NCBI RefSeq assembly: GCF_009805705.1 | Contig: NZ_VSMB01000009.1 | Coordinates: 124,001 to 188,000, forward strand | DNA from: Ruania rhizosphaerae | GTDB lineage: Bacteria > Actinomycetota > Actinomycetes > Actinomycetales > Beutenbergiaceae | Direction: 5' to 3' | DNA length: 64,000 bases | Shown here: positions 52,804 to 61,860 of the stretch, one piece after another | Layout: each line of letters begins with the position of its first letter | Position numbering within the stretch: position 1 is the first letter of the stretch | Program-made: the position numbers and the translations under genes | Notes under the pieces: model-generated | Seen by the model: the letters and a program-made list of their open reading frames with translations, nothing else | What the model was told of the DNA's origin: nothing | Database searches by the model: none

Positions 52804-53194
52804 ATGCGCGCCAGCCTGCTGATCGCGCCGGAGCAGCTGGAGGTCCGTGAGATCCCCACGCCCGAACCGCGCCCGGGGGATATGGTGGTGCGGATCGAAC
52901 AGGTGGGCTTGTGCGGATCGGATGTGCACTTCTTCACCCATGACCGGGTCGGCTTACTCGTGGTGACCGGACCGCTGATACTCGGCCACGAGGCCGGCGG
53001 CGTGATCGCTGCGGTCGGAGCTGGTGTGCCCGAGGGTCGGCTGGTGGCCGGTGGCGATCGATCTGATCGGCCGTGCCGTGGTGAATGTTGATCTGTTGAT
53101 CTCCGATCGCACCGACCTGGGCGGTCTACCGCAGGCGATGCGCCGCAACGGCGATCCCCAGGTGATGAAGGTCCTGATCAACCCGCAACAGTAG
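52804..53194 (+). pseudogene. Internally deleted zinc alcohol dehydrogenase (paralogue of the gene at 9671)
   Basis: ATG at 52804 opens a frame strongly matching the first 85 or so residues of the intact MDR enzyme (MRASLLIAPEQLEVREIPTP, GLCGSDVHFF, ILGHEAGG). It then jumps into another frame that encodes its last 50 residues (WPVAIDLIGR, LISDRTDLGGLPQAMRRNGD, ending NPQQ and TAG at 53192). Around 205 codons, including the structural zinc site and Rossmann domain, are gone, and the two parts are out of frame. The junction lies near 53040-53050, where both halves could share a short CTGG. It sits 39 bp after the glycerate kinase gene, so it was probably once part of that operon. Confidence 0.88.
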
Positions 53195-54954: not shown

Positions 54955-56427
54955 ATGACTCACTCGCGCGCTGCGGGCGCCTATCAGCGCGCCGTCCTGG
55001 CCTTTCGCAACCCCACGCTCGACCTCCTGCACGGCCGGTACGCACCCTTCGTCGTCGCGACTCTTTCGCTCGTCTTCACGGCCGAGCGCACCGCGGTCGC
55101 GATCAGCGACGCGCACGTCGAGGTCGCTGAGATCGTCGACGAGCTGCGGGCAGCCGGCTACGACGAGGACGAACGCAGCCTGCCCGCCGGAAACGGTCGC
55201 GAGATCTGCCGGTACTGGGTGCGGGTGGGTTGGCTCGTGCCGCAGATCAAGGACGACGTCGAGGTGTACCGCCTCTCGGCGCAGGCGGTGGGCGCCCTCG
55301 AGATCGCCGGACGCGCGGGCGGCGGCCGTGCCCGCGTGTCGCGCTCGCGGGTGCGCACGTTGCTCGACTCGATCGACACTCTCGCGCGCGACGCCGAGGC
55401 CGATCCGGAGAAGCGCCGGGCCCGGTTGCTGGCCGAGCGCGACGCCATCGACGCCGAGCTCGCCCGCCTCGAGGAGGACCAGTTCGAGCCGGCCGACGAC
55501 GAGCAGCTGCTCGAAGAGGCCGAGAACGTCCTCCACCTCACCCGCGAGCTCCCGGCGGACTTCTCCCGCGTCGCAGAGTCGATCGCCGCCATGCAGCGCG
55601 ATGTGGTGGCCGATCTGCGCCGGGATGTGCGCCCGACCGGGGAGGTGCTGCGCGAGTACCTCGAACGAGGGCAGCACATCATGCAGTCCACCCCCGAGGG
55701 CCGCGCCTTCTCCGGTGCGTTGCGGCTCATCGGAGACCCTGAGCGCATCGACCAGCTCACTGACCAGCTCCACCGTCTGCTCGTGCAGCCGTTCGCCCGG
55801 CTCATGGCGCGCGACCAGCAGATCGAGCTCGGAGCGATCGCCCGGCGCGTCGAACAGGGGGTGGAGGAGGTGCTCACCGCACAGCGGCGCGCTTCGCACG
55901 TGATCACCTCCCAGGTGCGCACCCACGACCCGGTCCGTGACCGCGAGGTCGACGATCTGCTCCGTGGCGCGATGTCCGCGCTGCAGGAGTGGACCCGGCA
56001 CGCCGGGCCGGCGCAGAAGGCCGAACCGCTTCGCGGCTTCCCCGTGGCCCACGTGGCGGACCTGCGTCGCTCCCTCAGCGATCCGAGCCCACCCCGTGTA
56101 CCCGCCTCGCTGACTGCCAGTGACGACGACCCCGAGTTCATCGGCGACGACAGCCGGGCCTGGGGTGGCCCGGCCTATCCCGAGCTCGAGGCGTACGCGG
56201 CGACCCTCGGTCCGGAGTTCGACCTCGCCACCGCCTTCGCCAGCGCATCCGAGGCGACCCGGCGCCCCGTCGATCTCGTGGGACTGCTGGAGATCGCCCA
56301 CCGCCGCGGCATGACCGAGAATGATGAGCTGTCCGTCGTCGAGGCACGGCGGCCCGACGGTACGACGCGCCGATTCGCCTTCGGAGCCGTCACCGCCCGA
56401 ACCGTGGAGGACCTAGCCGATGACTGA
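54955..56427 (+). CDS. jetA: Wadjet system subunit JetA / MksF-like, DUF3375 domain
   Basis: 490-aa DUF3375 protein. Characteristic stretches: [27 protein letters not shown] near the start, [11 protein letters not shown], long helical region about 140-330, and [21 protein letters not shown] near the end. In Wadjet complexes JetA is the kleisin, bridging the two heads of the SMC-like JetC. TAGACT 7 nt before the ATG without a Shine-Dalgarno suggests a leaderless transcript starting the operon. It overlaps jetB by 8 bp. Function would be recognition and extrusion of circular plasmid DNA, if a nuclease partner exists. Confidence 0.9.
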
Positions 56428-57136
56428 CCTTGAGGTGACCACCGAAGACCCGTTCATCACCCCCGTGGCGATGGAGGACGACCCCGACGCCACCTTCCCC
56501 GGTGACCGCGGCGTGCTGGACCCTGCCGTGCGCCGGGTCCTCGTGCGCCTGCTGCAACGGCGGTTCCTGCTCGCCGACCGCAACAAGGAGGACTGGGCCG
56601 TCCTGATGGACAACCACCAGGTGGTCGAGTCACGTCTGCACGATGTGTTCGTGCGCCTCATCGTCGACGTCGAACGTGGCGTTGCGTACAAGCAGCAGGT
56701 CCGCTCGGATGACCTCGAGGTGCCGATCCTGTTGCGGGATGAGCCGTACTCGCAGGCCGAGACGCTCGTGCTCGTCTACCTGCGCACGGTGTACCAGCGC
56801 GAATCGACGGCGGGGGAGCGGTCCGCTCGCGTGGATGTGGAGGAGGTCGAGCAGACCGTCCTCACCTACTTCCCGGACACTGACGGCGACATCGCCCGCC
56901 GCCAGCGCGCCGTCCGGGCGGCTCTGGCTCGCCTGCGCCAGGACGGCATCGTCGAGGAAGAGTCCGAAGGGCGTTACCTCATCAGCCCGCTCGTGGAGAT
57001 CGTGCTCAGTGCCGACAAACTGCGCGAGCTCACCGACTGGTTGCGCGACCAGGCCGGACTCGAGCAGATCGAGGCTGACCAGACCGAACCGGACCAAACT
57101 CAGCCCGACGACCCCCAGCCGGAGACCGCCTCGTGA
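56420..57136 (+). CDS. jetB: Wadjet system subunit JetB / MksE-like, DUF4194 domain
   Basis: 238-aa DUF4194 protein, the KITE (winged-helix) subunit. Visible features include [69 protein letters not shown] and a C-terminal winged-helix-like [29 protein letters not shown] repetitive acidic/Gln/Pro tail ([16 protein letters not shown]) closes it. It overlaps jetA by 8 bp and jetC by 4 bp, so stoichiometric translation is expected. JetB binds JetA in the complex. Confidence 0.9.
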
Positions 57137-60100
57137 CCATGCTCGACACCCTCTTCGGGATGATCCCTGCCACCAGCCGTGGCCAGCAATGGGTCGCCGA
57201 CGAGTTCCAACTGGTCAACTGGGGCGGCTACGAGGGCGCCCACCGACTGAAGCTCTCACCCGAGGCCACACTGCTCGTCGGCGGCTCCGGATCCGGCAAA
57301 TCGACCCTCATGGACGCCTACATCGCGCTCATGATGCCGCACACCACCCCGTTCAACGGCGCTTCCAACGGTGGCGTGACGGGCCGGCCGCGCGGTCAGG
57401 ACCAGCGCAACATCGTCTCCTACGGTCGCGGCAAGATCGATGAGTCCCGCACAGAGGACGGCACCCAGGTGCGCGTGCTGCGCGGCGACGGTGAGGACAC
57501 CTGGACCGCCGTCGCGGTGACCTGGATCGACCACGACGGGTCCCGGTTCACCGCCGTGCGCGCCTGGTACATCCCCGCCGGCGCGCGCCTCGTCGACGAC
57601 ACCGTGAAGGTTCGCGCCACCACGGACGGCGAGTTCGACCTGAGCTCGCTGGAGTCCGCGGCGATGCACCGGCTCTCCGATGCGGCCGTGGCCGCGACTG
57701 GCCTCGACACGGTGCATACGGACCGGGAGTTCACCGCCCGGCTGCACTCGGTTCTCGGGATCGGCGCCGCCGGTGCCGGCCACAAGGCGATGAGCCTGCT
57801 CGCCCGCATCCAGGCCGGCCAGCAGATCACCACCGTCGACGAGCTGTACAAGCGCATGGTCCTCGAAGAGCCCGAGACGCTCACCACGGCCGATGCTGTG
57901 GTGAGTCACTTCGACGAGCTCGAGAGCACCCGTGAGCGGATGGTGACCGCGCGCAAGCAGGTGCGCACATTGGAGCCCATCCGGGAGATGAAAGCACGCA
58001 TCGAGGCCTCGGCAGACCGCTTGCGCCTCATCGACGAGGTCGGGCGCTTCACCGACCCGGAATCTCCCGCCACGTTGTGGCGTGCGCAGAAGCGCCTCGG
58101 TCTGCTGCGGGACGTCGAATCGGAACTGCAGTCACGCAAACGTGCCGCCGATGACACCGCCCGTGCGGCACGGGTGCAGGTGGATGCCGCCGAACAGCAG
58201 CGCGATGCGCTCGCGGAACTGCTGCGTGCAGCAGGTGGTGACCGATTGGTGACGGCGGAGCGAGAGTTGCGTAGTGCCGAGCGCCACGCCGAGGAGGTCG
58301 CCCGAGAACGTGAGCGTTTCGATCAGATCCTCGACAGGGTCGGCGTCACCGCCGAGACCGCCAAGCAGTTCGAGTCACTCGTTGCGCGGGCGCGGGAGAG
58401 TCTGGATGATCCGCGGGCGAAGGACACCGCGCGTGAGGCCTGGGCTGCGGCCAGGCAGCGCACCGGCGAGATCGACCAGGAGTTGCGCGAGCTGGAGGCA
58501 GAGGCGGCGCAGGCAGGGGAGCACGACGGCGCGATCCCGACTCCACAGCACGAGGCTCGCCTGCTGCTCGCCGAGGCCGCCGGGCTCGAGCTGGCGGACC
58601 TGCCGTTCGTCGGGGAGCTCATCGAGGTGCGTACCGAGTTCGAACCGTGGCGTGAGGCCTTCAACCTTGCCCTCGGCGGTTTCGCGACGACCCTGCTGAT
58701 CGACCAGGCGCACCTCGACCGGTTCCGCCGGGCGATCGACAGCGTGCCGACCCGCGTGCGGCTGCGCTATGAAGGGGTGCACACCGGTTCGCCGCGGCTG
58801 CCGGAGCTCGATCCACGGCGCATGCCCGGGCGCCTCGAGTTCCGCGAGTCACCGTTCACCGGGTGGTTGCAGGACCGCCTCGATCAGCGATTCGGATTCC
58901 TGTGCGTGGACACCGCGGCCGAGCTGACCCGCCACGACATGGCGATGACCATCTCGGGGCAGATCTCTCAGGGTGCCCGCGGCGCGCACGGTGGGCACGG
59001 GCGCCGCAACGTGCTCGGTTTCTCCAACCACCGCCGTCTCGACGAGTTGTCGGCGGCGATCGCCGACGCGCGGACCCGCCGCACGGCCGCACTTGAAGCG
59101 CAGCAGCAGGCAGCCCAGGCGCTGGACGACCTCGACGCACGGCACACCGCCTACGGCAAGATCGTGGAGCTGACCTGGACGCAGGTCGACAGTGCATCCG
59201 CCGACGCCGAGCGGGATCGGTGGGCTGGGCTGATCGACGACATCTCGACGGGCAACCCCGAGATCACGAAGCTGCAGCGCCAGCTCGCCGAGGTGAAGTC
59301 CACACTGTCGAAGCTGATGACCTCGGCCGCCCGCGCCGATGGTGAGGTGGAACGACTCGGGGAGCAGTGGGCCCACATCACCGACCAGGTCGATGACGCC
59401 CAGCTCCTGCTCGATCGTGCCGAACGCGCCGAGCACACGCTGACCGAGGACCAGTCCGGGTATCTGGAGGAGCGGTTCGCGGTGGTCGCCCCGGTTGAGG
59501 GGGCGAGCCGGACGCACGAGCTCGAGCGTTTCGATCTCGCTCTGGAGAATGCCTCACGCCTGCTGGCTGAGGACCAGTTGGCCGCGCAGACGACGCTCTC
59601 GGAGCAGCGCGACGCCCTGCAGCGCACGTTCGAGTCGTTCCTCGAGAGCTGGCCGAACCCGAATCTTCGCGCCGACCCCGACAGCTCCTACGGTGACTTC
59701 GAGCGAATCCTCACCGACCTCGAGACCAGCGGCCTGCATGAGTTGGAGGCCGAGTGGAAGGACAGCCTGCTGCAACTGTCGGGCAACGACCTCACCAACC
59801 TCGACTCGGCGCTCGGGCGGGCGTTGCGGGAGATCCGCGACCGGATCCAGCCGATCAACCAGATCATGGCCGACCTTCCGTTCTATGACGATGCGCATCG
59901 CCTGCAGATCGCCGCACGCGAGACCTCCTCCGAGGCGCGCCGTCGCTTCCGCCGCGAGCTGCGCGAGGTGCGCGGGCTCATCGACAGTGCCGAGACCGAC
60001 GCCGATCGGGAAGCCGTGTATGGCCGGATGGCGCGGCTGATCGCACGGATGCGGCGCTCGGCTCCCGATTTCGCCGAGCTCGTCGATGTGCGCAACCACG

Positions 60101-60483
60101 TGCGGATCAGTGCGGAGAAGATCCATGCCGACACGGGAGAGCACGCAGCGCTGTACGACCACATCGGCGAGAAGTCCGGTGGTGAGTCGCAGGAGCTGAT
60201 TGCGTTCATCGTCGGTGCGGCGCTGCGCTACCAGCTCGGGGACCCCGACTCCGAACGGCCGCGTTACGCGCCGGTCTTCCTCGACGAGGCGCTGATCAAG
60301 GCCGACGCGCACTTCACGAAGCGGGCGATCGGGGCATGGCGGGGGCTGGGCTTCCAGCTCATCATCGGTGCGCCGAACGACAAGTACAGCGCGATCGAGC
60401 CCCACGTCGATGTGGAGTACGACATTCTCAAGGACACGCGCGGCCGGTCCTGGGCGAAGCCGAAGGTGGCGCTGAGCGGGTGA
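57133..60483 (+). CDS. jetC: Wadjet system subunit JetC / MksB-like SMC ATPase
   Basis: 1116-aa SMC-like ATPase (SbcC/MukB group). Walker A is [15 protein letters not shown] (about 49-63). A coiled coil (about 290-460) leads to a hinge-like globular region and a second coiled coil (about 640-900). The signature [13 protein letters not shown] is near 1012 and Walker [11 protein letters not shown] near 1050. It powers DNA loop extrusion in Wadjet or Mks condensin complexes. GTG at 57133 overlaps the jetB stop; ATG at 57139 is an alternative. Its own stop overlaps a GTG that would begin jetD, but that frame closes after 27 codons. Confidence 0.92.
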
Positions 60484-60563
60484 GCACCCTCCGTCTGCGG
60501 ACATCCGCCGACGTCGGCGCGGACGCTCCTCCTGCCTGCCGGCCGGGGCTTCAGGGCAACTGA
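60480..60563 (+). pseudogene. jetD (remnant): Apparent 5' stub of jetD (27 codons)
   Basis: GTG at 60480 overlaps the jetC stop exactly as jetD starts do in complete operons. The peptide starts [16 protein letters not shown] and ends at a TGA at 60561-60563. The opening resembles the LRTPADV-type N-terminus of DUF3322/JetD proteins, from memory. JetD is normally about 390 aa with a Toprim catalytic domain, and nothing in the following 100 bp looks like the rest of it. Deletion of most of jetD is the simplest reading; a chance ORF is the alternative. Confidence 0.5.
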
Positions 60564-60670: not shown

Positions 60671-61693
60671 TCAGCGAGGCGGTCGACCCAGGTGTCGAGC
60701 TGGTCGGGGGTGGCGCCCTGGATGCGGGCGGTTTGCTCGGGGGGTGAGGGGGCCGAACTGAGCAGCGAGCACGCGGCTCAGCATGACTGCTGCGCCTTCG
60801 GCGCGGCCTTTCGCGACTCCCTGGGCAACTCCTTGGGCGACCCCTTCGGCGACGCCTTCTGCGCGTCCTCGTTCGAGTGTGGTGGACATGTAGGCCTCCT
60901 GTGCATCGGGTCCCAGGTCTTCGAAGAACTGGCGCACCTGCGCCGGTGGAGTATCACTGACCTGGTAGGCGTACTCCATGATAATCGCGAACATCTGATC
61001 CGCCCGGGTTCGCACCAGCTCCACCACATCCGGGGTGAAGTCCTCCAGCACCTGAGCCAGGTGTTCCTGCCGGGGAGCGAACCGGAGCATCGCCAACGCC
61101 AGCCTGGCCGCTGGAGTCAACGGCGCCGCCAGCAACTCCTCCACCTCCACGCTGGTCAGATCCTGGAGCACGAACTGATGCCGGGGCAGGAATGAGCCGA
61201 GTGCTTGCTCGGAGGTAGCGTCGTACAGCCCGTCCATGGACGTGGGCGTGTTCCACCGGCGCCGGCCTTGATAGACCACCACCGGGAGGATCGGCGGCAG
61301 CGTCCTTGCCGCCGCCCCGGGACCCGTGCGGCGTGGTTGGTGCGGGTCGTCGGACTCGGCGCCGACGTCGAGGTGGCGCCACCAGATCCGGGTGACGTAG
61401 TCCATCACTCGCAACGCCATCAACGGGTCCGGGCTGGACTGGTGCTCGACCAGCACATACACCAGTACGGGGTCACCGTTGAGCCGGGTGGAGAACAGCA
61501 GGTCGGTGTGGCGCTGACGCATCTCCTCGTCCACGAAGTTGCCCGGCTCCAGTCGCAGCCCGCCCAGGTCCAGTCCTCCCGTGATCTTCGCCGGCAGCAC
61601 CGAGGCCAGCACCGACGCCGCATTCGCCGGCACCCCTACCACCGCTCGGAACATCGCATCATGCGGGTTCGGAGTCTCGCTTCTCCTTGCCAT
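60671..61693 (-). CDS. Rpn-family PD-(D/E)XK recombination-promoting nuclease, frameshifted near the 3' end
   Basis: 340 aa from ATG at 61693. The N-terminal Rpn/YhgA-like nuclease core has PHDAMFRAVVG, Asp64 (HTDLLF) and Glu83-x-Gln85 in VYVLVEHQSSPD, followed by ALRVMDYVTRIW and LPVVVYQG. A tandem helical stretch EGVAEGVAQGVAQGVAKGRAEG precedes the end. After FGPLTP the frame shifts at a run of six G (60739-60744); the other frame continues EQTARIQGATPDQLDTWVDR to a stop at 60640, the expected C-terminus. TACCGT 6 nt before the ATG suggests leaderless expression. These proteins are Rpn DNA endonucleases linked to mobile DNA and phage defence. Confidence 0.85.
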   Translation of the reverse strand: MARRSETPNPHDAMFRAVVGVPANAASVLASVLPAKITGGLDLGGLRLEPGNFVDEEMRQRHTDLLFSTRLNGDPVLVYVLVEHQSSPDPLMALRVMDYVTRIWWRHLDVGAESDDPHQPRRTGPGAAARTLPPILPVVVYQGRRRWNTPTSMDGLYDATSEQALGSFLPRHQFVLQDLTSVEVEELLAAPLTPAARLALAMLRFAPRQEHLAQVLEDFTPDVVELVRTRADQMFAIIMEYAYQVSDTPPAQVRQFFEDLGPDAQEAYMSTTLERGRAEGVAEGVAQGVAQGVAKGRAEGAAVMLSRVLAAQFGPLTPRANRPHPGRHPRPARHLGRPPR

Positions 61694-61804
61694 TCGTGCA
61701 CGGTAGAGGCCGCGACCCCACCCCGTCGGACTCACCCCAGGGGGTTGTGAACAATCCGCCATCGGGGTGCCATCTCGCCCTCGGGCATGCGCAACCAGCA
61801 CCGC

Positions 61805-61860
61805 CGAGGGTTGGCTGAGTGTCGAAATCCTGCGGATCGACGACACTCAGGCCACCCTCG
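61805..61860. repeat. Near-perfect 20-nt inverted repeat in the rpn-lacI intergenic region
   Basis: Arms 61805-61824 and 61841-61860 match at 18 of 20 positions (core CTGAGTGTCG / CGACACTCAG) around a 16-nt loop. It lies between divergent genes, so it is not an ordinary terminator. The whole 316-bp gap (61694-62009) otherwise holds only the lacI promoter and operators. Confidence 0.6.

Follow-up and report, generated by a model that had tools for sequence, protein, structure and literature searches.

In the anti-plasmid Wadjet systems of type I (JetABCD; MksBEFG, EptABCD), as described in PMC10586767, JetABC senses the shape and size of DNA with the use of ATP, loop extrusion being the proposed means, and JetD cuts. 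The same source suggests that MukBEF and MksBEF stem from a Wadjet-like defence system and presents MksBEF of Pseudomonas aeruginosa as a JetD-less condensin of the Wadjet group, likely derived by loss of JetD. PMC7617805 describes MukBEF as JetD-less, along with ‘several other Wadjet group members’, and catalogues operons with and without MksG in Data S1. The studied actinobacterial relative, MksBEFG of Corynebacterium glutamicum, has MksG and, according to PMC7083940, makes no contribution to chromosome folding. JetABC without JetD is already known as a kind of system; the interesting part is its recurrence in actinomycetes, a pattern of which no description was found in openly licensed papers.

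One such locus lies in the window, i.e. the whole stretch of 64,000 nucleotides of the Ruania rhizosphaerae genome that was analysed (contig NZ_VSMB01000009.1, positions 124,001 to 188,000). The reading favoured here, with somewhat better than even confidence, is that of an intact, selectively maintained JetABC that was already JetD-less before three or more species of the genus diverged and whose likeliest role is that of an accessory condensin-like DNA organiser.

The jetABC operon

The operon consists of three open frames on the plus strand: jetA, encoding the kleisin subunit (DUF3375; MukF/MksF-like; 54955..56427, 490 aa), jetB, encoding the KITE subunit (DUF4194; MukE/MksE-like; 56420..57136, 238 aa), and jetC, encoding the SMC ATPase (MukB/MksB-like; 57133..60483, 1116 aa). 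The canonical order, with overlaps of 8 bp between jetA and jetB and 4 bp between jetB and jetC, had been recognized in an earlier sequence-only reading, the coordinates and overlaps of which are exact. The best PADLOC models are those of type I for all three subunits, JetA1 (E 8.6e-208), JetB1 (E 4.5e-109) and JetC1 (E given as 0, 1651.8 bits), and Pfam agrees, with PF11855 (DUF3375, 2.1e-109) for JetA, PF13835 (DUF4194, 4e-41) for JetB, and AAA_29 together with SbcC_Walker_B for JetC; against the Pfam MukB model, JetC scores only marginally, at 24.3 bits with a cut-off of 23. The solved structures closest in sequence are PDB chains named JetA, JetB and JetC, with 8dk1_A the best for JetA. 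Thus, the kleisin, KITE and SMC subunits of a Wadjet are encoded together. Upstream, at approximately 52804-53050, between a glycerate kinase gene and the genes that precede jetA, lies only an N-terminal piece of a zinc-dependent dehydrogenase (NCBIfam matches span approximately 60-90 residues).

JetC carries the Walker A motif, the signature KSGGESQ and the Walker B motif PVFLDEA. The Walker A lysine, the signature serine, and the aspartate and glutamate of Walker B are kept in all JetC rows, 87 of 87 JetD-less and 33 of 33 JetD-bearing. All three genes are under purifying selection: the dN/dS values (Nei-Gojobori) against two sister species (G004 and G005, respectively) are 0.034 and 0.115 for jetA, 0.140 and 0.155 for jetB, and 0.084 and 0.109 for jetC. 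The same genome encodes SMC (912.8 bits) and ScpA, and therefore JetABC does not replace them.

JetD in the genome and among relatives

A profile search of the whole assembly (4,426,037 bases, or 4.43 Mb, in 43 contigs, listed as 100% complete) yielded zero matches to PF09983 (JetD_C) and zero to PF11795 (DUF3322), both of which matched C. glutamicum, the positive control. Accordingly, a JetD with DUF3322 and the PF09983 Toprim domain was found neither in the operon nor in the genome; the sequence-only reading, which saw no jetD after jetC and proposed such a search, was right on this point. What the locus does encode are homologues of MksB, MksF and MksE, in which the ATPase residues are intact, whereas MksG is missing. 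With JetD neither adjacent nor detected in the genome, plasmid cleavage as described for Wadjet would not be expected here.

A JetC match is present in 20 of 59 genomes (the window's own and 58 relatives) and in three of the eight genomes of the genus, namely the window's and those of the two sister species, with JetC identities to the window of 97% (G004) and 94% (G005). In both sister species jetA, jetB and jetC are present, the next gene is again the convergent one of Rpn type, and the locus has no jetD. No JetD match exists anywhere in the G005 genome, and the single one in the G004 genome adjoins a second JetC (L021), 29% identical.

Several further arrangements were seen among these genomes. 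In another member of the genus, which has no JetC match, a partial JetD_C match falls in a 184-aa frame (L037, G003), with no jetC-like sequence in the surrounding 3.3 kb. Two genomes (G051 and G034) hold JetC-like genes (L008 and L009) that are 29% identical to that of the window, with no JetD in either genome and no JetB found when the JetB of the window was used as the query; they are possibly another JetD-less lineage. In each of two others (G046, with L013 and L022, and G028, with L014 and L023), a JetC system without JetD coexists with one that has it, a natural test for cross-talk between the two.

The wider sample of relatives, obtained by scanning the genomes of named species, comprised the best 80 of 357 loci. 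JetB could be detected at all 80, JetA at 77 and JetD at 18, leaving 62 with no JetD; three of the latter (L069, L080 and L099) are uninformative, with less than 150 bp after jetC, and were removed from the count, so that 59 of the 77 informative loci are JetD-less. The count of JetD-bearing loci includes L052, in which jetD is in two pieces, and L104, although the overlap frame of the latter closes after 22 codons. JetD-less relatives include Microbacterium, Leucobacter, Corynebacterium, Tessaracoccus, Nocardioides, Gulosibacter and Actinomyces, and 13 of the 18 JetD-bearing ones are, by their record titles, Actinomadura, Nocardia and Actinoplanes.

The absence typically extends to the genome. 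Among the 47 genomes chosen for a JetD-less locus (48 were searched in all), 40 have no PF09983 match; the other seven comprise six with strong JetD_C matches, in all of which another jetC-like gene adjoins the JetD, and one with a short, weak match (G459). Further members of the class gave the same result, with no match in 17 of 19 genomes that have a JetD-less locus. Within one further genus (that of G426, 59 genomes sampled), JetC is matched in 39 genomes, some of these matches being distant, and JetD in nine; seven of the 39 JetC-matching genomes have a JetD match and 32 do not.

In Microbacterium helvum (L052, 12835-14312), the similarity to JetD beside jetC is split between two pieces that lie in different frames; here, in contrast to the window, JetD may have decayed recently.

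History of JetD in the JetC tree

In a FastTree phylogeny of 120 JetC rows (33 with JetD and 87 without), the JetD label changes 14 times, with at least 12 of the changes forced by supported branches, and the window falls within a set of 23 rows (support 99), none of which has JetD. The long branches flagged for this tree belong mostly to the outgroup; L106, a member of the 23-row set, was flagged too, as was a long join at the root of the 88-row clade. A mixture-model tree of 58 near-clade rows, with no long end branches listed, requires seven changes, all seven forced, and places the window within a wholly JetD-less set of 18 rows, again with support 99. The JetD-less state of the window hence probably dates to the ancestor of the wider JetD-less set. 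Repeated loss of JetD is favoured over gain because distant lineages have an adjacent JetD and L052 has it in pieces, a preference that goes beyond parsimony, which alone cannot separate the two.

Two other origins were considered. Horizontal transfer of the three-gene unit, to which L059 and L066 gave occasion, is not shown, given that their flanks are approximately 91-92% identical too. A plasmid-borne origin was rejected: the 14 plasmid records with a JetC match are all below 60% identity, with the top one at 40.1%.

Subunit columns and the JetB N-terminus

In Wadjet, the IFDR motif at the N-terminus of JetB contacts JetD, as reported in PMC10586767. PDB alignments gave no clear match over this stretch of the window's JetB. 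The N-terminal motif around FxGDxGxL (residues 25-33, window 56492-56518) is kept in the JetD-less rows, D29 being invariant across 114 rows and G31 shared by 111 of them, JetD present or not, so that a partner of JetB may still exist there. Position 25, a threonine in the window, is leucine in 29 of 30 JetD-bearing and 50 of 84 JetD-less rows (116 rows aligned, with the misaligned L071 and L119 excluded).

Columns that are conserved with JetD and relaxed without it number three of 215 in JetB, position 25 included, one of 1111 in JetC and nine of 489 in JetA, and the reverse pattern is shown by one, nine and nine columns, respectively; column 546 of JetC, with a change from F to Y, gives a sharper contrast than position 25 of JetB. 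An independent-pairs test of position 25 against the JetD state reached no significance (median p 1). In the near clade, six of the eight changes at this position occur at wholly JetD-less forks, and no claim is made on it because wholly JetD-less branches already hold 11.44 of the 16.07 units of near-clade branch length.

A probable condensin-like role and possible non-cutting plasmid control

The favoured reading implies the following mechanism. JetC dimers, joined by the JetA kleisin and the JetB KITE subunit, would spend ATP to load onto DNA and extrude loops, as in Wadjet; with no JetD at hand, the encounter would end in release of the DNA rather than its cleavage. The net role would be that of a condensin-like accessory beside the housekeeping SMC complex, as in the case of MksBEF, a possibility raised already in the sequence-only reading and supported by the present data. 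Three observations count against it. The patchy presence of the locus, in three of the eight genomes of the genus, is more in keeping with an accessory or defence trait than with a core condensin, and the lack of a chromosome-folding role of the C. glutamicum MksBEFG speaks against a chromosomal organiser, although MksG is present there. The third is the N-terminal motif of JetB, whose retention in JetD-less rows leaves room for a partner.

The first two of these observations lend some weight to the alternative that survives best, namely that JetABC still recognizes small circular DNA and controls it without cutting, through silencing, compaction or mis-segregation. Any JetC match at all is found in only 67 of 394 genomes of the class, in line with the patchiness within the genus, and PMC7083940 reports that the C. 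glutamicum complex targets plasmids rather than the chromosome. However, in Bacillus subtilis none of the four subunits, JetD among them, was dispensable according to PMC10586767, and deletion of mksG in C. glutamicum is described in PMC10123090 as having the same plasmid effect as deletion of mksB or mksF. The genomic neighbourhoods do not help this alternative either: no recurring defence gene was found beside the JetD-less loci among the PADLOC and Pfam families listed. Control of plasmids without cutting is, on balance, unlikely though worth keeping in view, and the condensin-like accessory remains the first choice.

The comparison of neighbourhoods covered 117 genes next to JetD-less loci (one on each side, from a rough gene caller) and 67 next to JetD-bearing loci (at most two on each side), so that the sampling is unequal and any defence-island difference between the two kinds of loci is suggestive only. 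The neighbours of JetD-bearing loci match 35 PADLOC families, of which the 25 listed have one member each and include type I and type IV restriction enzymes as well as Cas3g and Cas7g; those of JetD-less loci match 26 families, of which the 25 listed have at most two members each, among them SspH, mad8, helicase-type models (DpdF, BrxHI) and singles. In Pfam, searched with the JetD-less neighbours only, no family listed occurs in more than five of the 117.

Neighbouring genes and the question of a substitute nuclease

Another possibility, also raised in the sequence-only reading, is that a nuclease encoded elsewhere stands in for JetD. The obvious candidate is the convergent Rpn/YhgA-like gene (Transposase_31; 60671..61846, minus strand, a 391-aa frame; Pfam PF04754, 8.8e-43), which we take to be of the PD-(D/E)XK type and which is the neighbour of jetC in each of the three species of the genus where the locus was seen. 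Its core is 86-88% identical to those of the sister species, but the gene is on the opposite strand, its C-terminal part is here in a different frame from theirs, the family has five members in this genome, the neighbour of jetC being one, and no such gene occurs at any of the 80 relatives' loci (best 80 of 357). It was judged to be genus-local and not a part of the system. Nor does any other neighbour stand out. When frames up to 5 kb away from the 62 loci without JetD are compared, the largest similarity cluster takes in 26 loci, scattered over both sides and both strands, which is read as compositional noise, and the second-largest of the 25 clusters listed spans five loci; only five of the 59 JetD-less loci have a called gene on the same strand that begins no more than 50 bp from jetC. 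With no widely shared neighbour family among the clusters listed, the borrowing of another nuclease finds no support and is improbable.

The frame after jetC

Slightly less probable still is a JetD that is present, very divergent or relocated, and was missed. The search did rest on sequence profiles and the assembly is in 43 contigs, but the two Pfam domains found nothing genome-wide, a profile built from 40 JetD rows (of which L030 duplicates L007) and applied to the window alone reached a best E of only 0.068, and the PF09983 search detected JetD in five of five JetD-bearing genomes among the further class members.

The sequence-only reading had taken the frame that opens in the GTGA of the jetC stop and closes after 27 codons (60480..60563, plus strand) as a stub of jetD. 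The position and the closure of the frame were read correctly; the stub itself did not hold up. All 20 JetD-bearing near rows have an ATGA or GTGA junction at the end of jetC, but so do 16 of the 66 JetD-less ones, a set that takes in the window and the sister species (GTGA in 14, ATGA in two, another sequence in 50). JetD N-termini could be obtained from the overlap in 18 of the 20 JetD-bearing near rows (the frame closes early in L070 and L114). Against these 18, the frame of the window scores 22, compared with 38-119 for the JetD-bearing rows themselves (leave-one-out), and shuffled DNA reaches that score in 33% of 2000 trials (P = 0.33), so that alignment with the jetD starts of relatives is no better than that of shuffled DNA. 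The equivalent frame in both sister species has a different sequence, 18 codons long, with scores of 16 and 14 (P 0.75 and 0.9). Only five of the 66 frames (L076, L060, L093, L065 and L095) have P < 0.05, approximately the chance level, in this test, which covered the frame at the jetC stop codon. The tblastn matches that resembled remnants were disregarded: most fell on the end of jetC, where JetD frames that had not been trimmed matched it, and a few extended past jetC, at weak E-values. Judging from these comparisons, 60480-60563 is an ordinary short frame with no recognisable remnant of jetD.

Neither a jetD remnant after jetC nor a JetD-bearing close relative was found, and what had been named in advance as speaking against recent loss, namely relatives with jetABC, the same downstream sequence and no jetD, is largely what the two sister species show. 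A recent deletion of jetD that left the operon a decaying remnant, suggested by the canonical gene order with the GTGA junction and by decay elsewhere in the family (the two pieces of jetD in M. helvum), is already contradicted and most improbable, given sister species at 94-97% JetC identity that also have no jetD, purifying selection on jetA, jetB and jetC, a frame at 60480 with no similarity to JetD and a surrounding set of rows that is JetD-less throughout.

Implications and comparison with known systems

For the actinomycetes at large, chances are about even that loss of JetD is both recurrent and stable, with JetABC kept as a nuclease-free DNA motor that has a selected function of its own. 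If so, these loci would form a natural series of defence machines turned into DNA organisers or non-cutting plasmid controllers. Closely related JetC with and without JetD, down to a single genus (L100 and L104, both Cellulomonas), provide a natural comparison for the conversion from defence to organiser and would allow the loop-extruding core to be studied apart from cleavage. On the practical side, annotation from JetA, JetB and JetC alone would probably overcall anti-plasmid defence in actinomycetes.

Compared with Wadjet type I, the locus has the same JetA, JetB and JetC in the same order, with overlapping frames and intact ATPase residues, whereas the JetD nuclease was found neither at the locus nor in the genome. 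With MksBEF of P. aeruginosa it shares the three subunits, the absence of JetD and the presence of a housekeeping SMC; it differs in belonging to another lineage and in that its chromosomal role is putative. Enterobacterial MukBEF is likewise a Wadjet-group SMC complex without MksG/JetD, as described in PMC7617805, but according to PMC10586767 MukBEF apparently replaced Smc-ScpAB, whereas in R. rhizosphaerae SMC and ScpA are both present beside JetABC.
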